Part shown: in pieces, positions 2,061 through 12,703 of the stretch
How the letters are laid out: the number at the start of each line of letters is the position of its first letter
Numbering within the stretch: the first letter of the stretch is position 1
Origin: Bacteroidaceae bacterium
GTDB taxonomy: Bacteria > Bacteroidota > Bacteroidia > Bacteroidales > Bacteroidaceae
Reading direction: 5' to 3'
DNA: 46,333 nucleotides
Assembly (NCBI GenBank): GCA_017470425.1
Contig: JAFUYT010000030.1
Location: forward strand, 1 to 46,333
The notes under the pieces: generated by a model
The model's database searches: none
Seen by the model: only the letters and a program-made list of their open reading frames with translations
Told to the model about the DNA's origin: nothing
Position numbers and translations under genes: made by a program

Positions 2061-4916
2061 CTACTCAAAAGTGATATCATCCACGTGCTCGCCGACGAAG
2101 AAGCCGGCGAAGTCGGCCGTCTTGTACCATTTCGGCTTCTCGGGCATCGCATCATAGATGCGGTGGCCGTTGAGACGGAAGTCCTTGAAGTGGACGCCGC
2201 TGACGCGGTGGTCGGCATCGTAGCCGTAGATGAGGGAGAGAATGGGCTGCTCGCCATAGTAGCGGATCGTGCGGAAGGTGATGTTCTCGACGCCGAGGCC
2301 GGGAGCCTTGCAGTACTTCTGGTTCCAACCGACCTTGACATGCAGCAGGCTGCCCTGATGGATGTTCTCGATGCGGATGTTGTCGAACGTCACATTGCGG
2401 ACCAGGTTGTTGTCGCCGCAGTTGATGGCCATGCAGCCCTGGTAATCCACCTGCGCCTCAGCCTGGCAGAGGATGTCGATGTTCTCATAGAGGAGGTTCT
2501 CGATGGTGTCGCGCCGTTCGGGATGCGGACCTGCGGCAGCGCCGTGGAGGCCTATGAAGATGGGGTGGGCCACGTCGGCCCAAAGCGTTGAGTTGCGCAT
2601 GTGGATATTCCGCGTGGAGCCCGAAAAGTCCTTACGCGTGGCGTAGGCTGTGGTGCAGTCGTCGCTGTTGCGGCAGAATACGCGGTCGAAGAGTATGTCG
2701 CTCGAGCCACCGAACACGTTCAGACCGTCGCCCCATCCTGGATGCGAGATGCTGCGCACGTCGTGCAGCGTCACGTTACGTGCTGCGCCTATTGGGCATG
2801 TGTTCACCACGAGACCATCGATGAGTACGTTCTGCGAGCGGTGGACGTGGGCGCCCTCGTAGCCGCGTGGCGGGCGGGCTATGCCGCGCCCGAGTATGCT
2901 TACGTTCCGCGTATCCTCGATGGCGAAGGTGCTGGTGAAGTAGGCGCCGGGGGCAAGGTAGAGGGTGGTGTTAGATGGCACGAGGATGTTGCCATCTGAG
3001 ATGAGAGATGAGAGACGAGAGACGAGAGATGGCTGAGCCTGGCTGTCTTTAATCTCTAATCTTTTATCTTTTATCTCATAGAATCCGGCTGGGATGTAGA
3101 TGAACTGCCGTCCTTCCTTCTTCGCCTGCGCCTCGGCCTCCTCCTTGCTCACGGGTGGCTTGGAGGTGAACACGAGCAGGTTATCTGTGATATTCCCGTC
3201 GAACTCCACGCTGACGTTCTCGGGCTGGAAGAGCAGGAACTGCACGGTGCTGTCGTTCTGCACGTTGGCGATGGTGCCGCGATAGTCGGGGCGTATGCGG
3301 GCCGACTTAAATTTCTTGTTCTTGGTGACGACGCGCACAAATACATCGCCCGTGAAGTCGAAGAAGCAATAGGAGATTTCGGAGATTTTATGGCGGGCCC
3401 CTCTCCCCGCTCCCCCCGAAGCCCCTCTCCCCGCTCCCCCCGTGGGGGGGAGGGCTGCGTTTCCGCTTGAATCATCTCCTGAGGATTTGAAGTCCTCCCC
3501 CCCACGGGGGGAGTTAGAGAGGGGCCTGTCCTCCCCCCCACGGGGGGAGTTAGAGAGGGGCCTCACATTCACCTTCGCCATATAGGTATCTATTTTCGTC
3601 CACTCCTGCGAGCCGCGGGGACAGACATAGACATCGTAGTCGTGCTTCAACGGTGCACCTTCGGGAGCGGGATAGGTGAAGACCTGATGGAGCGGGCCTC
3701 TCCCCCCGCCCTCCCCATTAGGGAGGGAGCCGGTGACGCCCGGCACGGTGAACTCATTCGACTCGAGGCCCGTCTTCACCTTGTTCTGACGCTCCGCCTT
3801 CCGCTGTAGGGCGAGCAGCTTCTTCGTGTAAGGCATCTTCAGGCCACGGCGGCCGACGTAGTGGTTGTACGGTTGGTCGTAAATATTCTGTATGCGCCCG
3901 CGTGCCATGGCTCCGGGTTCCGTCCAGTCGTTGTAGAGTCCGGTGCAGTCGGTCCATGTCTCGAAGGGTACGTCGTAGCCCAGGTTGTAGCGGGCGGTGT
4001 ATTCTATGCCTTTCATCAGTCGGTTGTCGAGGGCTCCCCAGAGGTCGTCGCCCTGCTGCCATGCCATCTCGCAGATATCGCACAAGGCACCCAGTCCCAG
4101 CTGTGCGTGAGCCTGGTCGCGCCCCGTCTCCTGGCACTGCCCCGTCTGGCCGACGTAGTTGGGCAGCGCACTGTTGTCGTTGGCGTGGAGGAAGTGCTCG
4201 ATGGCGGCGCGGTACATCACGGTGTCGCCCATCGCCAGTGCCGCTGCCATGCGGAAGCGGTTGACGATGGCGCCCCAGTTGCCATTGGCGTATGGGCTGT
4301 CGGCCTCGAACTTATTCATGGTAGGGAGGAAGGCGCGGCGGAGCATGGTGGACCATGAAGGCACGGCCCCTCTCCCCGCTCCCCCCGTGGGGGGGAGGGC
4401 AAGCCCCTCTCCGGCTCCCCCCGTGGGGGGGAGAGCTGCGTTTCCGCTTGAAAGTTCCCCAGAGGATATGGAGTCCTCCCCCCCACGGGGGGAGTTAGAG
4501 AGGGGCCTGTCCTCCCCCCCACGGGGGGAGTTAGAGAGGGGCTTTTCCTCCATCATCGCCCTGCACAGCCAGTAGCCCTGGATGAGGCAGAGGGGTGCGT
4601 CGTGGCCGTCGAGGCGCTGGAGCTTGTCGGCGTAGGCGTTGATGATCTCGCAGGCTTTCTCGTGGTGCCCAGCCTTCGCCAGCTCCCACGCAGCCCGCAT
4701 ATCACGCTCGCTGCCGCCCTTGGAAGCACGGAACTCGCCGTCGCGCGCCACCACTTCGTAGGGGCCGGCCATTTTGTAGTCGGCATCGAAGGTCTGGGCG
4801 CGGAGTGTTGAGAATTGACAATTGACAATTGACAATTGACAATTGGGAAGTGAGAAATGGGCTGCGCAGAACAGCAGGAACAGGACAGTGATTTTCTGTT
4901 TCATCGTATCGGTCAT
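2061..4916 (-). CDS. Secreted alginate-lyase-like plus GH28-like two-domain protein
   Basis: This 951-residue exported protein has two catalytic-type domains. Residues about 75-380 are alginate-lyase-like (alpha/alpha toroid; CQETGRDQAHAQLG, NRLMKGIEYTARYNLG, YNHYVGRRGLKMPY). Residues about 510-951 are a GH28-like right-handed beta-helix with the beta-strand domain in front, GDGLNVFGGSS and NSDDC carrying the expected acidic residues. Together they suggest cleavage of a uronic-acid polymer such as pectin or glucuronan; the substrate is inferred. The ATG at 4916 overlaps the GH43 stop by 4 nt (ATGA), so the genes are coupled, and the ATG at 4904 is an alternative. Residues about 24-38 come from a 7-bp repeat, and about 125-184 and 452-507 are repeat-derived insertions. 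A further repeat insert interrupts the helix at about 616-641. Confidence 0.8.
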   Translation of the reverse strand: MTDTMKQKITVLFLLFCAAHFSLPNCQLSIVNCQFSTLRAQTFDADYKMAGPYEVVARDGEFRASKGGSERDMRAAWELAKAGHHEKACEIINAYADKLQRLDGHDAPLCLIQGYWLCRAMMEEKPLSNSPRGGEDRPLSNSPRGGEDSISSGELSSGNAALPPTGGAGEGLALPPTGGAGRGAVPSWSTMLRRAFLPTMNKFEADSPYANGNWGAIVNRFRMAAALAMGDTVMYRAAIEHFLHANDNSALPNYVGQTGQCQETGRDQAHAQLGLGALCDICEMAWQQGDDLWGALDNRLMKGIEYTARYNLGYDVPFETWTDCTGLYNDWTEPGAMARGRIQNIYDQPYNHYVGRRGLKMPYTKKLLALQRKAERQNKVKTGLESNEFTVPGVTGSLPNGEGGGRGPLHQVFTYPAPEGAPLKHDYDVYVCPRGSQEWTKIDTYMAKVNVRPLSNSPRGGEDRPLSNSPRGGEDFKSSGDDSSGNAALPPTGGAGRGASGGAGRGARHKISEISYCFFDFTGDVFVRVVTKNKKFKSARIRPDYRGTIANVQNDSTVQFLLFQPENVSVEFDGNITDNLLVFTSKPPVSKEEAEAQAKKEGRQFIYIPAGFYEIKDKRLEIKDSQAQPSLVSRLSSLISDGNILVPSNTTLYLAPGAYFTSTFAIEDTRNVSILGRGIARPPRGYEGAHVHRSQNVLIDGLVVNTCPIGAARNVTLHDVRSISHPGWGDGLNVFGGSSDILFDRVFCRNSDDCTTAYATRKDFSGSTRNIHMRNSTLWADVAHPIFIGLHGAAAGPHPERRDTIENLLYENIDILCQAEAQVDYQGCMAINCGDNNLVRNVTFDNIRIENIHQGSLLHVKVGWNQKYCKAPGLGVENITFRTIRYYGEQPILSLIYGYDADHRVSGVHFKDFRLNGHRIYDAMPEKPKWYKTADFAGFFVGEHVDDITFE
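3001..3077. repeat. Two in-frame heptamer arrays inside the GH28-like domain
   Basis: Four 7-bp units of A(T/C)GAGAG (3001-3028) and four of T(A/T)ATCT(C/T) (3050-3077) encode the linker KDKRLEIKD to RLSSLISD. They split what would otherwise be a continuous strand (GFYEIK to GNILVPSNTTLYL) typical of this beta-helix family. Confidence 0.75.
3398..3563. repeat. Composite GC-rich palindromic element, in-frame copy 2
   Basis: Two copies of a palindrome (core CCCCCCACGGGGGG plus GTTAGAGAGGGG) in one orientation face two degenerate copies in the other, around a short spacer containing TGCGTTTCCGCTTGAA. The host gene reads through it as a Pro/Gly/Ser-rich stretch (PLSNSPRGGED twice, then ALPPTGGAGRGA). 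It closely matches the element at 4366-4543. Confidence 0.9.
4366..4543. repeat. Composite GC-rich palindromic element, in-frame copy 1
   Basis: Same structure as the element at 3398-3563: two palindromes, the TGCGTTTCCGCTTGAA spacer, then two inverted palindromes. It is translated in frame as about 60 residues of low-complexity sequence inside the alginate-lyase-like domain region (residues about 125-184). Confidence 0.9.
4814..4841. repeat. Heptamer repeat in a signal peptide, 4 units, in frame
   Basis: Four perfect ATTGACA units (TGTCAAT on the coding strand) sit between the hydrophobic core of the signal peptide and the RAQ cleavage-like site. The translated product is NCQLSIVNCQFS. With four units the downstream protein is in frame. 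Confidence 0.9.
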
Positions 4917-6454
4917 TTAGTGATTTTAATCCAGTCAATATCGAGCCAACCGCGGTTCGTGTCTGCGGCGTCGCTCTCGGCCACAAAGCCATACTTGGCG
5001 CCTATCCACTTGCCCTCGCGCATGGCGAAGGGCTCGCCTGCGGCCTTGAAGCGGCGGCCGTCGGTGCTGTAGGCGTAGCTACACTGCCCGTCCTCCACTG
5101 CGATGCGTAGGTAGATGTCGAGATAGATGGCAGGGGCGTAGGGGATGGTGTCGGCGGCCGTGGGCTTGAGCACTACGATGTCCTCGGCGCTCTCGGGCTT
5201 TCCGTTGTCGGCATCGATGCATGTGCGGCGCTGCAGCACGAAGACGTCGCCGCGGCGCAAGACCACGAGCGCCGAATAGGAGCGCCCCATCATGACGAGG
5301 CCGCCCCACTGCCCTTCCGCCTTGGCTGCCATGCGCACCTTGGCCGTAGCCGTGAATCGTGGTGCCGTGGGCTTCTGCAACAGCAGGTTGGGCGCGGCCC
5401 AGAGGGAGCTCGCCCCCATTCCCTCCTCAAGGGAGGGGAGATAACATGTGTAGAGACGCATACAGCCGTCGGCCGTAAGCATACCGTAAGTCTGGTCGTA
5501 GTTGGCGTGCCACTGCCATTGCAGGCCGAGCTGGCCACTGTCGAAGTCGTCGGACTCCTGCGGGGTCACACGCTCAGTGGCACCCGATTTAGGTTTGCGG
5601 TATTTAGCATAGGGTTCGCCGCAGCCGTCGCCGTCGGGGTCGTTGCCGATGACAGGCCAGCCGTTCTTCCACGTCATCGGTTGCAGATAGACGACGCGGC
5701 CGTAGGCCCCTTTGTCGTTGAAGTGCAGGAACCAGTCCTCGCCCTGCTGCGTATGCACCCATGCGCCCTGGTGCGGGCCGTTGATGTCGGTCGTTCCCTG
5801 TGCCATCACGCGCCGCCATTCGTAGGGGCCGTAGGGCGAGCGGCTGCGCATAGCCAGCTGCCAGCCCATCGCCACGCCGCCTGCCGGACACAGGATCCAA
5901 TAGTAGCCGTCGCGCTTGTAGAACTTCGGCCCTTCGGTGGTGTGGTTCACCTGTCCGCCGTCGAATACGATGCGGGGGAGGCCGATGACACGTGTGCCGT
6001 CGGCCGAGAGCTCGCGCACGGTCAGCACCGAGTTGAAGCCAGCCCGCGATGCTGCCCAGGCGTTGACGAGGTAGCAGCGACCGTCCTCATCCCAGAGCGG
6101 ACACGGGTCGATCATCCCGCGCCCCTCGATGACGCACACAGGCTCCTCCCACGGCCCTTCAGCCCGCTCGGCCCGCACCATGAAGATGCCGCGGTCGGGG
6201 TCGCCCCAGTAGATGTAGAAACGGCCGTCGTGGTGACGGATGGCGGGAGCCCAGACTCCCTTGCCGTGCTGCGGGAGCTTGAAGTCAGCCGCGGGCATCA
6301 GCGTAGGCAGCGCATGGCCTATGATGCGCCAGTTCACCAGGTCGCGCGAGTGCAGGATCGGCAGCCCCGGCACGCACTGGAACGACGAGGCCGTGAGGTA
6401 ATAGTCCTCGCCCACGGCGCAGGCGTCGGGGTCGGAGTAGTCGGCGTAGAGCAC
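4913..6454 (-). CDS. GH43 family glycosidase (xylosidase/arabinofuranosidase type), out of phase with its signal peptide
   Basis: This is a GH43 five-bladed propeller enzyme. Counting from the GTG at 6454, the catalytic triad fits D8 (DYSDPD, base), D116 (GMIDPCP, modulator) and E174 (HTTEGPKF, acid). A C-terminal beta-sandwich (about 300-513) is typical of GH43 beta-xylosidases. The GTG is not a natural start: the same frame continues upstream through SAQSVWQPDCGDGTYKNP, the usual N-terminus of the family, with no ATG. A clear signal peptide lies just upstream (ATG at 6579) but in another frame, separated by three 7-bp repeats. Adding one unit would join them. The stop overlaps the start of the next gene (ATGA). 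It probably removes xylose or arabinose side chains, and is expressed as exported enzyme only if the frame is restored. Confidence 0.8.
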   Translation of the reverse strand: MLYADYSDPDACAVGEDYYLTASSFQCVPGLPILHSRDLVNWRIIGHALPTLMPAADFKLPQHGKGVWAPAIRHHDGRFYIYWGDPDRGIFMVRAERAEGPWEEPVCVIEGRGMIDPCPLWDEDGRCYLVNAWAASRAGFNSVLTVRELSADGTRVIGLPRIVFDGGQVNHTTEGPKFYKRDGYYWILCPAGGVAMGWQLAMRSRSPYGPYEWRRVMAQGTTDINGPHQGAWVHTQQGEDWFLHFNDKGAYGRVVYLQPMTWKNGWPVIGNDPDGDGCGEPYAKYRKPKSGATERVTPQESDDFDSGQLGLQWQWHANYDQTYGMLTADGCMRLYTCYLPSLEEGMGASSLWAAPNLLLQKPTAPRFTATAKVRMAAKAEGQWGGLVMMGRSYSALVVLRRGDVFVLQRRTCIDADNGKPESAEDIVVLKPTAADTIPYAPAIYLDIYLRIAVEDGQCSYAYSTDGRRFKAAGEPFAMREGKWIGAKYGFVAESDAADTNRGWLDIDWIKITK

Positions 6455-6489
6455 GGGGTTCTTGTACGTCCCGTCGCCGCAGTCAGGCT

Positions 6490-6588
6490 GCCAGACGGAC
6501 TGAGCCGAGACAGTTGACAGTTGACAGTTGACAGCTGGGCTGCGCAGAGCAAATAAAGAGTAAATAATATTCGTTTCATCTTTATCAT
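6490..6588 (-). other. Detached signal-peptide segment of the GH43 gene
   Basis: ATG at 6579 (or 6588) starts MKRILFTLYLLCAAQ, a normal lipid-free signal peptide, then reads STVNCQLSRL through the heptamer repeat and continues in a non-homologous frame to a stop at 6334. The GH43 frame starts one base earlier in each codon. It belongs to the GH43 gene in its current unjoined state. Confidence 0.8.
6513..6533. repeat. Heptamer repeat, 3 units, causing the GH43 frame break
   Basis: Three perfect GTTGACA units (TGTCAAC on the coding strand) between the signal-peptide core and the predicted cleavage site SAQ. The position matches the four-unit array in the next gene at 4814-4841. Confidence 0.9.
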
Positions 6589-6687
6589 GGATAAATGTCG
6601 CTTTTTATTAATACGTATTTGCGTGCGTGATTACCTAATCCCTTCACTGGATGCCCGGTTCATCTTCCAATTAAGTGGTTTGCGGTG

Positions 6688-6695
6688 CAAAGATA
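6688..6695 (-). promoter_or_regulatory. Probable -7 box of the GH43 operon promoter
   Basis: TATCTTTG followed by CACC on the minus strand, about 110 bp upstream of the ATG at 6579. No good TTTG -33 box is visible at the right distance. Confidence 0.5.
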
Positions 6696-6801
6696 CAACT
6701 TTTTCTGTACATTCTGCGGTTTCAAGGCGTTAATCCAGTAAAATACAACTTTTGCAAAAGGATTTGAGCGGAAACTGCAAGGTGAAGAACGGTGAAAGTT
6801 G

Positions 6802-6809
6802 TATCTTTG
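6802..6809 (+). promoter_or_regulatory. Probable -7 box of the GH10 gene
   Basis: TATCTTTG 28 bp before the ATG at 6838. The preceding AAGTTG also precedes the divergent box at 6695, so both promoters share AAGTTGTATCTTTGCA. The -33 box is poor, which may mean an activator is needed. Confidence 0.55.
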
Positions 6810-6837
6810 CAGCAAGAAAACAAAAATATACTGCTTT

Positions 6838-7935
6838 ATGATCCGAAACTTTCTCCTCTCTCTCCTCTGTGCCGCCACAGCGACGGCCAGCGCTCAGCAC
6901 CTGCGCGACGTGCTGGGCGGGGATGTCCTCATGGGTGTGGCCCTGAACCAATGGCAAACGAGCGGCCAAGATGCCCGCACAACGGCCATCGTGCGCGAAC
7001 ATTTTAATTGTCTGACGCCCGAGAACGTGATGAAGAGCGGCCCGCTGCAACCCGCCGAGGGTGTCTTTGACTTCCAGGCTGCCGATGACGTGGTGGCGTA
7101 TGCCGAGGCCAACGGACTGCAGGTCATCGGGCACTGTCTGGTCTGGCATTCGCAGGCGCCGTCGTGGTTCTTCACGGACGGCACTGGGAAGCCCGTGAGC
7201 GCCGAGGTGCTGCGGGAACGTATCCAGAAGCACATCAGCACCGTCGTGGGCCGCTACCGCGGGCGCATCCACGGGTGGGATGTCGTGAACGAAGCCATCG
7301 AGGACGATGGCAGTTTCCGGCGCTCACCGCTTTATAACATCCTGGGCGAGGACTTCATCGAACTGGCGTTCAGGGCCGCCCACGAGGCAGACCCCGATGC
7401 GGAACTCTACTACAACGACTACAGCATGGCACTGCCCCGCAAGCGCGAGGCTGTCTGCCGGTTGGTGCGGCGGCTGAAGGAACGGGGCGTGCGCATCGAC
7501 GCCGTGGGGATGCAGAGCCACCTGAGCCTCACGCACCCCGACCTACACGAGTACGAGACCACGATGGACTCGCTGGCCGCCACGGGCGTGAAGGTGATGG
7601 TCACGGAGCTGGACGTGAGCGTGCTGCCCTCGCCGTGGGGCTTCAACGGCGCAGAGGTGTCGCAGAGCTTCGAGTACAAGAAAGCCATGAACCCTTATAC
7701 AGAAGGGCTCCCCGACAGCGTGCAAGCACGCTTCGAGGAGCGCTATCTGGATTTGTTCCGCATCTACGCACGGCATCGCCAAGACCTATCCCGCATCACC
7801 TTCTGGGGGCTCACGGACGAACAGTCATGGCTCAATGGATTCCCCATCAAGGGCCGCACCGACTACCCGCTGCTATGGAACCGCGACTACCGCGCGAAGC
7901 CTGTCGTGGGACGCATCATCGAAAGCTTCCGATGA
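6838..7935 (+). CDS. GH10 endo-1,4-beta-xylanase
   Basis: This 365-residue secreted enzyme hydrolyses internal beta-1,4 bonds of xylan. The ATG at 6838 gives a signal peptide ending ASAQ; an ATG at 6799 would overlap the -7 box. A single GH10 TIM barrel follows: ENVMKSGPLQP (about 62-72), GHCLVWHSQAPSW (98-110), WDVVNEAI with acid/base E152, and TELDVS with nucleophile E257, ending in FWGLTDEQSW. Length is normal for a single-domain GH10 and no carbohydrate-binding module or C-terminal sorting tail is present, so it may be periplasmic. It is divergent from the GH43 operon, which would act on the same arabinoxylan. Confidence 0.93.
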   Translation: MIRNFLLSLLCAATATASAQHLRDVLGGDVLMGVALNQWQTSGQDARTTAIVREHFNCLTPENVMKSGPLQPAEGVFDFQAADDVVAYAEANGLQVIGHCLVWHSQAPSWFFTDGTGKPVSAEVLRERIQKHISTVVGRYRGRIHGWDVVNEAIEDDGSFRRSPLYNILGEDFIELAFRAAHEADPDAELYYNDYSMALPRKREAVCRLVRRLKERGVRIDAVGMQSHLSLTHPDLHEYETTMDSLAATGVKVMVTELDVSVLPSPWGFNGAEVSQSFEYKKAMNPYTEGLPDSVQARFEERYLDLFRIYARHRQDLSRITFWGLTDEQSWLNGFPIKGRTDYPLLWNRDYRAKPVVGRIIESFR

Positions 7936-7938
7936 GCC

Positions 7939-8346
7939 TTAATAGGTGACGACGGGTTCGAGAGCCTTGGCCTCCTCGACCATCTTCTCGACCTCCTTCA
8001 GGGAGGGCACGCGGCGGACGAGGTGCTTCTCGTTGTTGGTCTCCTCCAGCTTCGGCTGCAGGTTGGCGGGCACGCGGTGGCGGAATTCCTTCACGGTATC
8101 TACGCCAGCAGCCTCGAGCAGTTCAGCGAACTGAGGTCCTACGCCGTTGATACGGAAGAGGTCAGCGTGGTTGGTCCAGCGCAGGATGAGCTTGTCGCTG
8201 ATGCCAGTCTCCTCGGCGAGCTGCTGGCGGCCCTTGGGCGCAGCACACTTTGCGAGCAGATCCTCTACTTTGACGATGCCGGCGGCAGTCAGTTTCTCGG
8301 CATAGACCTCGCCTACGCCTTCGATGTCAATCACTTTGTAAGCCAT
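7939..8346 (-). CDS. DUF4332 helix-hairpin-helix protein
   Basis: This 135-residue soluble protein has two helix-hairpin-helix motifs, IEGVGEVYAEKL (about 8-19) and INGVGPQFAELL (about 66-77), the arrangement of DUF4332. HhH motifs bind DNA backbones non-specifically, so a nucleic-acid role is plausible but not proven. The start is the ATG at 8346, about 68 bp after an excellent promoter, and length fits the family. It converges on the xylanase gene with only 3 bp between stop codons. No neighbour suggests a specific pathway. Confidence 0.8.
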   Translation of the reverse strand: MAYKVIDIEGVGEVYAEKLTAAGIVKVEDLLAKCAAPKGRQQLAEETGISDKLILRWTNHADLFRINGVGPQFAELLEAAGVDTVKEFRHRVPANLQPKLEETNNEKHLVRRVPSLKEVEKMVEEAKALEPVVTY

Positions 8347-10174: not shown

Positions 10175-12703
10175 ATGAAGAAACATCTCTGCACTGCAAT
10201 GGCACTGCTCCTCAGCGCCGTCAGCCTCTCCGCACAGGAAGACATGGCCACGTTCCGCACGTGGGCACAGACACCCCCTATGGGCTGGAACTCATGGGAT
10301 TGCTACTACTCCTCCGTCACCGAGAAGGAGGTACTGCAGAATGCGCAGTACCTCGTCGATCACGACCTCGTCAAGTACGGATGGGAGTACGTCGTCGTAG
10401 ATATCCGCTGGTACTGCAACCACCCCTCCCTCGGCGGCGGCAACTACAACCAGCGCGGCGACCAGGACTACGTCCTCGACGAGTACGGCCGCTACCTGCC
10501 CTCCCCCACCCGCTTCCCCTCCGCCATGGTCGAGGGTCGCAACGAGGGTTTCAAGGCACTCGCTGACCGATTGCATGCCATGGGGCTGAAGTTCGGAATC
10601 CATATCATGCGTGGCGTGCCCAAGAGCGTGCAGAACTCCACCTACAAGCTCAAGGGCAGCGAGACGACGCCCTGGAGCAAGGTCTATAAGAGTACTGCCC
10701 TAGAGTGCACCTGGCTCAAGGACAACTTCACCGTGCAGAACAACGAGGCTGGACAGCTCTACTACAACAGCATCATGGACCTCTATGCCGAATGGGGCGT
10801 GGATTTCCTGAAGATCGACGACCTCTCGCGCCCCTTCTACACCGACGAGATCCACATGATCCGCCGCGCCATCGACCAGACGGGACGACCCATCGTGCTC
10901 TCCCTCAGCCCCGGCAAGACGCAATACACCTACGCCGAGGAGTGTCTCCAGAACGCCAATATGTGGCGCATGATGGACGACCTCTGGGACAACTGGAGCC
11001 ACGTGGATGCTGTCTTCAACGAGGCTCACGCCTGGGAGACCGTCACGCGGACGGGTAACTACGCCGACTGCGATATGCTGCCACTCGGACAAATCGCCAT
11101 GACCATCGGCGACGCAGGCTACACCAATGCACAGAGCGGCCGCTGGACGAACCTCACCGAGAACGAGCAGCTCACGATGATGACCCTCTGGGGTATCTGC
11201 CACTCACCCCTCTTCTTCGGCGGCGAGATGACCAAGAACAACGACTTCACCCTCTCGCTCCTCAACAACGAAGAGTACCACCAGATGCACAAGTACGGCC
11301 GCGATGCCCACCAGCTCTTCAACGACGAAGACCTCGGCCGCGTCGCCTGGACAAGCACCGATCCCGCCACCGGCAACCGCTACCTCGCCCTCTTCCAGCG
11401 CGACAACGACCGCTGGATCGTAGGCAGCAAGGCGCTCTACCGCTCCGAGACCGTGGCCTACACCACCGACGGCCACGCCGTCAGCGTCGATATCCCCTGG
11501 CCCGAAGGCGAGAAGACCCTCGTACTCGTCATCGACGACGGAGGCGACAACTACAACTACGACCACGGCGACTGGATCAACCCCACCCTCATCCTGCGCG
11601 ACGGCACCGAGGTGCCCCTCACCGGCACCTACAAGACCCGCCAGTACACCGCTTCCTATTTTAATCGCGTGCGCGAGAACTCCAATGTCGATCACGGCGG
11701 TAAGATGAAGGTCATGGGCACCACCTACGACCGCGGTTTCTCCGCCGATGCCAACACCGCCATCTTCTTCCAGATTCCCGATGACATGGATGTCGTACGC
11801 TTCACGGCCCTCGCCGCCGCCGATGACTCCGGCATCGGACAGACAGGCGCCACAACGAGCATCCGTTTCATGGTCTTCGACCAGAACCCGCTCACGGCCG
11901 AGCAGAACGACTACGCCGCCACCTCTGGCCTCATCTCCCGCACCGGCACACGCTCCAAGACCCTCGAGTGCGACATCACCGATGCCACACAGCTGAAGAT
12001 TGTCGTCTCCAATGCCGGCGACGGCTTCGCCTACGACCGCGCAGACCTCATCAACCCCGTCCTCATCAGTGCCGACGGCACGGAGACCTCCCTGACCACC
12101 CTCACACCCACCTCCTACACCAGCGAGTGGGGATCGCTCCACACCAACCGCAACGTCGAGAACGGCACCCTCCGCGTCGAAGGAACCTCCTACGCCACCG
12201 GCCTGGGCATGAACGCACAGTGCACCCTCATCTACGACCTTCCCAAGGGCCACTCGTTCAAGACCTTCCGTACCCTCTGCGGCTACGACTCCAGCTGCGA
12301 CACCGACAACACTTCCTCCTCCGGTACCACGATGGAGTTCCTTATCTACGTCACCCAGTCCGCCGCCTTCACCTTCGACCTGACACAGCTCGGCTATGGC
12401 GCCAATGAGGCCGTGCCGGTGCATGACATCTGGGCTCGCGAGGATCTTCCCGCCGCCACCGGCACCCTCTCCCTCGAAGTCCCCAGCCACGGCACCCGTC
12501 TCCTCCGGCTCGGTGACAACGAACCTATCGTCGATGCCATCACCGACCTCGAGGCTCCCCAAATTTCCACTTTCAACTCTCACCTGTCAACTCTCAACTC
12601 TCAACTGTCAACTGTCAACTTCTATGACCTCCAGGGACGCCCCTCCTCAGCCACCCAGCCCGGCATATACGTCCACAAAGGCCAGAAGGTAGTCGTGCGA
12701 TAA
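10175..12703 (+). CDS. GH27 alpha-galactosidase-like enzyme with two C-terminal NPCBM-like domains
   Basis: This 842-residue secreted enzyme has a signal peptide ending SLSAQ, then a GH27 TIM barrel (about 28-400): PPMGWNSWDCYY, WEYVVVDIRWY, FLKIDDLS with nucleophile D215, and WRMMDDLWDNW with the acid/base at D268 or D269. The family removes alpha-linked galactose, or beta-linked arabinopyranose, from the non-reducing end. A beta-sandwich follows, then two similar NPCBM-like domains (LVIDDGGDNYNYDHGDW and IVVSNAGDGFAYDRADL mark them) that probably bind sugar. The last residues FYDLQGR...PGIYVHKGQKVVVR form the C-terminal tail seen in secreted Prevotella proteins. A heptamer array lies just before this tail, so its unit number controls the tail reading frame. 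Longer than a minimal GH27 because of the added domains. Confidence 0.85.
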   Translation: MKKHLCTAMALLLSAVSLSAQEDMATFRTWAQTPPMGWNSWDCYYSSVTEKEVLQNAQYLVDHDLVKYGWEYVVVDIRWYCNHPSLGGGNYNQRGDQDYVLDEYGRYLPSPTRFPSAMVEGRNEGFKALADRLHAMGLKFGIHIMRGVPKSVQNSTYKLKGSETTPWSKVYKSTALECTWLKDNFTVQNNEAGQLYYNSIMDLYAEWGVDFLKIDDLSRPFYTDEIHMIRRAIDQTGRPIVLSLSPGKTQYTYAEECLQNANMWRMMDDLWDNWSHVDAVFNEAHAWETVTRTGNYADCDMLPLGQIAMTIGDAGYTNAQSGRWTNLTENEQLTMMTLWGICHSPLFFGGEMTKNNDFTLSLLNNEEYHQMHKYGRDAHQLFNDEDLGRVAWTSTDPATGNRYLALFQRDNDRWIVGSKALYRSETVAYTTDGHAVSVDIPWPEGEKTLVLVIDDGGDNYNYDHGDWINPTLILRDGTEVPLTGTYKTRQYTASYFNRVRENSNVDHGGKMKVMGTTYDRGFSADANTAIFFQIPDDMDVVRFTALAAADDSGIGQTGATTSIRFMVFDQNPLTAEQNDYAATSGLISRTGTRSKTLECDITDATQLKIVVSNAGDGFAYDRADLINPVLISADGTETSLTTLTPTSYTSEWGSLHTNRNVENGTLRVEGTSYATGLGMNAQCTLIYDLPKGHSFKTFRTLCGYDSSCDTDNTSSSGTTMEFLIYVTQSAAFTFDLTQLGYGANEAVPVHDIWAREDLPAATGTLSLEVPSHGTRLLRLGDNEPIVDAITDLEAPQISTFNSHLSTLNSQLSTVNFYDLQGRPSSATQPGIYVHKGQKVVVR
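12573..12620. repeat. Heptamer array before the GH27 C-terminal tail
   Basis: Six consecutive TCAACT(C/G)-type units (one variant) plus a partial unit, translated as NSHLSTLNSQLSTLNSQLSTV. It joins the last binding domain to the FYDLQGR tail, which is currently in frame. Confidence 0.9.

Follow-up and report, generated by a model that had tools for sequence, protein, structure and literature searches.

A heptanucleotide array in the predicted signal-peptide code of a GH43 gene: a probable and rare OFF allele among leaders mostly held in frame

Introduction

A close described counterpart of the locus analyzed here is the opa gene system of Neisseria, in which CTCTT repeats in the leader peptide control phase variation at ~1e-3 per generation (accessible part of PMC3960869). 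Heptanucleotide arrays are described from two further settings: TAACTGA arrays occur in Beggiatoaceae and in some Bacteroidetes, where they are mostly intergenic and lie just upstream of start codons (PMC4679880, in the portion available), and G-rich heptamers of Xanthomonas and Nostoc exhibit a preference for four units, are tied to G-quadruplexes, and occupy non-coding sites (PMC4692102, likewise in part). Among genes for enzymes and nutrient use, a Gardnerella sialidase exhibits repeat-mediated phase variation, and Bacteroides glycan-use genes exhibit invertase-based phase variation (PMC11868660, partial text). The available part of the last-named source, which treats phase-variable enzymes and glycan genes, makes no mention of heptamer leader arrays, and a literature search confined largely to papers outside subscription listed no study in which Bacteroidota signal peptides are built from heptamers.

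Here we analyze a window of 46,333 nucleotides, that is, the whole stretch of DNA constituting contig 30 of an assembly (2.4 Mb, 36 contigs, 72% complete) of an uncultured gut bacterium with kinship to Prevotella. A sequence-only reading of this window had proposed that a 7-bp repeat places a GH43 enzyme out of frame with its signal peptide, and that the repeat is a slipped-strand on/off switch for enzyme export.

Results

The GH43 leader and the GH43 frame are one base out of register. The leader reading frame (6334–6588, minus strand) contains ATGs at 6588 and 6579, encodes the signal-peptide-like sequence MKRILFTLYLLCAAQLSTVNCQLS, and then proceeds in the wrong frame to a stop; the peptide read from ATG 6588 is MIKMKRILFTLYLLCAAQLSTVNCQLS, followed by a switch to another frame, and the ORF from ATG 6579 extends for 81 codons before the stop. 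Between the leader ATGs and the array lies MKRILFTLYLLCAAQ. The array (6509–6534, minus strand) comprises 3.7 copies of TGTCAAC, three of them full, with a period of 7 and a 100% match; it lies within coding sequence, and its unit length is not divisible by three. Its position and hydrophobic composition place it inside the code of a predicted signal peptide. The intact frame for GH43 and GH43_C2 (4913–6520, minus strand) is offset by one base from that of the leader; read from 6520, where it begins LSTVSAQSVWQPDCGDGTYKNP, it contains 535 open codons. No Met is present in the 28 open codons of this frame upstream of 6520, and GTG and TTG, read by eye, are likewise absent from those codons; on the basis of this Met-less stretch, we rejected an additional start codon for GH43. 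The interval from 6588 to 6520 is 68 bases, that is, 2 mod 3, and addition of one 7-base unit (or removal of two) would therefore restore the register. The structural part of the sequence-only reading, namely that the leader from ATG 6579 enters three TGTCAAC units, that the GH43 frame is open one base off without an ATG of its own, and that one unit more or two fewer would join the frames, is borne out in full. We conclude that the assembly does contain the broken frame, with the unit arithmetic as described.

The downstream frame encodes full-length domains above the Pfam cut-offs, which places the protein in the GH43 family: Glyco_hydro_43 (PF04616) matches at 3.8e-70 with 236.9 bits (cut-off 32.2) over profile positions 1–288 of 288, and GH43_C2 (PF17851) at 7.9e-28 with 98 bits (cut-off 22.7) over positions 1–202 of 203. 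The earliest listed ORF start in this frame is GTG 6454, which lies within the conserved N-terminus and gives a 513-codon ORF. Upstream of the leader, at 6687–6695 (minus strand), is TATCTTTGC, which we take to be a promoter-like motif of the Bacteroidota −7 type; TANNTTTGC has 26 matches in the window vs. 3.9 expected. A sigma-70-type promoter near the leader was rejected, no site of that type being found in 6500–6850. A divergent GH10 gene follows (6799–7935, plus strand; Glyco_hydro_10, 2.9e-98 for 6826–7935).

The next gene on the strand (2061–4904, minus strand), which has a weak Alginate_lyase match at residues 201–306, also carries a heptamer array in its leader (4808–4845, minus strand; 5.4 copies). 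The leader is in frame, and the frame runs through the array unbroken, as the sequence-only reading had held; the four units given there apply to the identical TGTCAAT copies, in addition to which the array contains the variant TCTCAAC.

Further repeats occur in the window. Within the frame of gene 2061–4904 are two more heptamer arrays, at 2998–3031 and 3046–3076 (units GAGATGA and TCTTTAA), and, at 3397–3563 and 4377–4551, G/C-rich near-palindromic repeats with a AACTCCCCCCGTGGGGGG core and a 36-base period. At two or fewer mismatches this core has 102 matches in the source genome, whereas the sister assembly G139 (described below) contains none, and its version of the gene is much shorter at the G/C-rich repeat region; the repeats have the look of an element that spread recently and that genes tolerate. 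A plus-strand array at 12569–12620, near the 3' end of gene 10175–12703, is coded through as ISTFNSHLSTLNSQLSTVN and directly precedes a C-terminal tail, FYDLQGRP...GIYVHKGQKVVVR. Similar letters, 'YDLSGRK' plus an array, occur in other genomes among the matches listed, and heptamer arrays may be present at C-terminal secretion or anchoring tags as well.

Array-built leaders form a class in the genus, and those sampled are overwhelmingly in frame. The unit, generalized as [TNTCAAY]n, is stop-free on the coding strand and encodes the heptapeptide xQLSTVN and variants. Because 7 is 1 mod 3, the identical repeating heptapeptide is encoded in all three frames, and unit number alters only the exit frame. 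The pattern behind ATGA occurs in at least 74 of 139 genomes of the genus, many of these occurrences not being leaders. The source genome contains 175 overlapping pattern matches (70+105) vs. 2 for a permuted unit, and the sister genome contains 4 vs. 3, which puts the sister at background; a reversed-pattern control, high in the source genome (60+84 vs. 70+105), was set aside in favor of the permuted unit because the arrays themselves contain the reversed pattern. At a GH43 dS of 0.43, the 175 vs. 4 matches amount to very fast gain or loss of arrays.

Loci were picked by eye, among the matches listed, from the letters between start and array, before the downstream letters were examined. Of 107 loci analyzed, 82 pass the leader rule and 80 of these have one clear downstream frame; one of the 80 (L296), which passed the rule as out of frame, was dropped by eye as no real leader. 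In the resulting sample of 79 leader arrays, which is not a census, covering as it does a part of the listed matches and including genomes chosen for many matches, 76 are in frame (25 genomes, 47 gene families; 76 of 80 if L296 is kept), vs. one third by chance (p = 1e-32), and 3 are out of frame (interval 0.8–10.7%). The 25 loci that fail the leader rule include 15 with a clear downstream frame, 8 in and 7 out. Counts in and out of frame by number of full units are 1 and 0 for two units, 12 and 3 for three, 56 and 0 for four, 6 and 0 for five, and 1 and 0 for six. Three full units alone do not mean OFF: of the 15 arrays with this number, 12 are in frame, some with a degenerate neighboring unit. 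Other leaders with the same flank (LLCAAQ, LLCATQ, or LLCTAQ; L238, L240, and L268) each carry four units, in frame. With 76 of 79 in frame, ON and OFF are not both common among alleles of the class, and the possibility that the class consists of balanced phase switches was rejected on these counts.

The out-of-frame arrays, those of GH43, L244, and L307, all have three full units followed by an open downstream gene. L244 (genome G081) precedes 425 open codons, and its ortholog L287 matches Porin_O_P at 3.6e-6; the two leaders are identical but for one extra TTTTCAA unit in L287, and L287 is in frame whereas L244 is OFF. L307 (genome G014) precedes 508 open codons, and its homolog L237 matches Peptidase_C69 at 1.4e-96; the six C69 homologs of L307 that were compared have four units and are in frame, whereas L307, with three, is OFF. 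The one-unit difference between L244 and L287, together with the frame arithmetic at GH43, indicates that unit number would set ON or OFF in natural alleles, at the level of sequence.

Most of the GH43 orthologs compared lack the array. The closest GH43 ortholog found in named genomes (L061; 90% identity) is from the roe-deer omasum MAG RGIG4457 (assembly G139, the sister), and many others belong to MAGs of rumen, omasum, or abomasum origin that carry the names Prevotella, Prevotellaceae, or Bacteroidaceae. A Met is present in the open frame upstream, within the leader, in 79 of 80 orthologs, the remaining one being cut by a contig edge; most have, by eye, ordinary short leaders ending in AQ. 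A period-7 leader is present in only 3 of the 80 in named genomes (L070, L081, and L116), all in frame, and it is because of this count that we do not regard the array as conserved. The GH43 leaders of L037 and L081 contain another heptamer (TNTTCAC type, peptide SLFTIHFSLFT), in frame, and more than one heptamer type seems to serve in building leaders.

Comparison with the sister defines where homology ends. In the sister, GH43 lacks an array, and the second gene has a shorter, degenerate one, in frame. GH43 dN/dS between the window and the sister is 0.133 at a dS of 0.43, which leaves the GH43 frame without sign of decay. By blastn, the window matches the sister at 87.2% from 6496 down to 4551; above 6496 there is no blastn match in the 3 kb upstream of L061, so that 13 bases past the array (6496–6508, minus strand) separate it from the start of homology. 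A search of the sister assembly with region 6500–8000, comprising leader and GH10, gave no match at E 0.001 (40 of 45 candidates scored). For the GH43 leader region that assembly contains only short repeat-like and motif-like matches, and a counterpart of the GH43 leader or its promoter was not found there. With no array at GH43 in the sister for comparison, the leader may already have been out of frame with the gene when it arrived.

Units within arrays are homogenized. Adjacent units are identical in 64% of 228 pairs vs. 38% after units have been exchanged at random between arrays within a genome; 0 of 5000 shuffles reach the observed value. Unit-type overlap is 0.42 on average between different genes of one genome (174 pairs), 0.25 between orthologous arrays of different genomes (55 pairs), and 0.24 between unrelated arrays (2852 pairs). 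The results indicate that unit sequence changes fast while number and frame stay. Homogenization within arrays and genomes suggests repeated turnover of units; if turnover proceeds by single-unit steps, lineages would have passed through out-of-frame states, an implication avoided if gene conversion, which could account for the homogenization in place of slippage, is the cause.

Sequence identity shifts sharply at the array in four close pairs among 68 homologous array-leader gene pairs, the four having been chosen after viewing all 68 and the comparison having covered array leaders only. In L256/L287 and L284/L285, identity is 96–99% behind the array and 71–80% before it; in L244/L287 and L246/L286, identity is 89–100% before the array and 80–90% behind it. 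L307 and L237, at C69, are 93–94% identical behind the array and 74% identical in the leader. At the C69 locus of G081 and G051, leader windows reach 0.98, the top of 650 windows (mean 0.82), and single windows outside the leader reach 0.97. Upstream synteny differs between several mosaic pairs, and, given those differences, the breaks near gene starts may be ordinary rearrangement. As a lead only, the pattern suggests recombination breaks at leader arrays. We raise tentatively, as a possibility that we think less likely than not, that stop-free arrays serve as frame-neutral seams, at which recombination swaps promoters and signal peptides onto mature exported proteins and unit gain or loss then tunes the frame. 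If so, any junction would read through, and OFF alleles such as that of GH43 would be both a by-product of leader shuffling and raw material for it.

Discussion

We propose that the GH43 gene is probably present as an OFF allele, rare among leaders that are otherwise held ON; the allele would be reversible in principle and would involve no dedicated rapid switch. According to this proposal, the GH43 signal peptide is of a type common in the genus, with a core encoded by a few tandem copies of a stop-free heptamer (TNTCAAY). The peptide encoded by the array is mildly hydrophobic and equal in every frame, so that unit number alone would fix the frame in which the ribosome exits. Leaders of the class, mostly with four full units, would be held in frame by selection. 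In the assembled allele, the GH43 leader, with three full units, would direct exit in the wrong frame and a stop after 81 codons, leaving the enzyme OFF. The present GH43 leader may have been gained by rearrangement ending at the array, and a unit may have been lost through slippage or unequal exchange, probably recently and in a state able to revert.

The principal alternative is a contingency locus, that is, frequent slippage between three and four units that switches GH43 export within the population. The frame arithmetic, the intact GH43 gene, the natural one-unit ON/OFF pair in another gene (L244/L287), the homogenized units, and the precedent of opa, with its repeats in the leader, all fit a contingency locus. 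Slippage rates increase with repeat number, however (titles saying as much are listed in a table of PMC11868660), and about four units make a short array for a high rate; moreover, just 3 of 79 arrays are OFF, and the array is missing from most GH43 orthologs. We therefore consider a contingency locus unlikely. Of the on/off switch put forward in the sequence-only reading, what survives is that unit number sets the exit frame, with an intact gene (dN/dS 0.133) and a one-unit allele pair; frequent switching is not supported, given the count of 76 of 79 in frame, which includes all 56 four-unit arrays. It is also quite improbable that the strain has four units and that one was dropped in a consensus or assembly error: the MAG is fragmented and incomplete (36 contigs, 72%) and four is the commonest unit number in the class, but an array of 26 bases is far shorter than a usual sequencing read, and OFF cases occur independently in two other genomes.

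The leader exchange or unit loss could be fixed and the gene heading to decay, as the OFF state and the existence of further genes of this kind in the source genome (G000; 4 GH43-like matches) might allow; 535 open codons and a dN/dS of 0.133 argue against plain loss of function, which, if it occurred, would have to be very recent, and we give it little credence. Finally, the enzyme could be expressed in spite of the break, either as a cytoplasmic protein from GTG 6454, from which the 513-codon ORF extends, or by ribosomal frameshifting at the array, a process named, for gonococcal P.II genes, in the title of a reference in the accessible part of PMC3960869. GTG 6454, however, lies within the conserved NPVLYADYSDPD, and orthologs have their Met further upstream in the open frame (79 of 80, the other being cut). 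We regard such expression as very improbable.

If the class is as it looks, a single short repeat supplies signal-peptide code to dozens of exported proteins that are not related to one another. In that case, the leaders would be conserved in frame and in unit number, not in sequence, and a change of one unit could silence a gene. Such arrays would let gut fiber degraders produce secretion variants at low cost, and perhaps exchange leaders, and enzymes that look leaderless in metagenome-derived genomes may be OFF alleles, a caution for annotation.

The GH43 locus resembles opa in having, in its predicted signal-peptide code, a tandem repeat with a unit that is not a multiple of three and with a unit number that sets the frame of the exported protein (accessible part of PMC3960869). 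With TGTCAAC as the unit and GH43 as the protein, it is not a homolog of Opa or of the CTCTT pentamer. Unlike the opa pentamer, leaders of the GH43 class contain a heptamer in few units, mostly four, and are in frame in 76 of 79 cases; also unlike opa, the array leaders belong, in a gut commensal, to enzymes acting on carbohydrates and to envelope genes of various kinds, and are described at the level of sequence. Like TAACTGA arrays, the arrays are short, many, genome-wide, and patchy among relatives, whereas TAACTGA arrays, in forward orientation, contain stops, cannot be coded through, and have a different unit (PMC4679880, available portion). Like the heptamers of Xanthomonas and Nostoc, they are genome-wide and prefer four units (PMC4692102, in part); unlike those heptamers, TNTCAAY is not rich in G and is located in leaders. 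In the kind of gene affected, the locus resembles the cases of Gardnerella and Bacteroides, in which genes for nutrient use or enzymes are phase-variable, those of Bacteroides by DNA inversion (PMC11868660, partial text).
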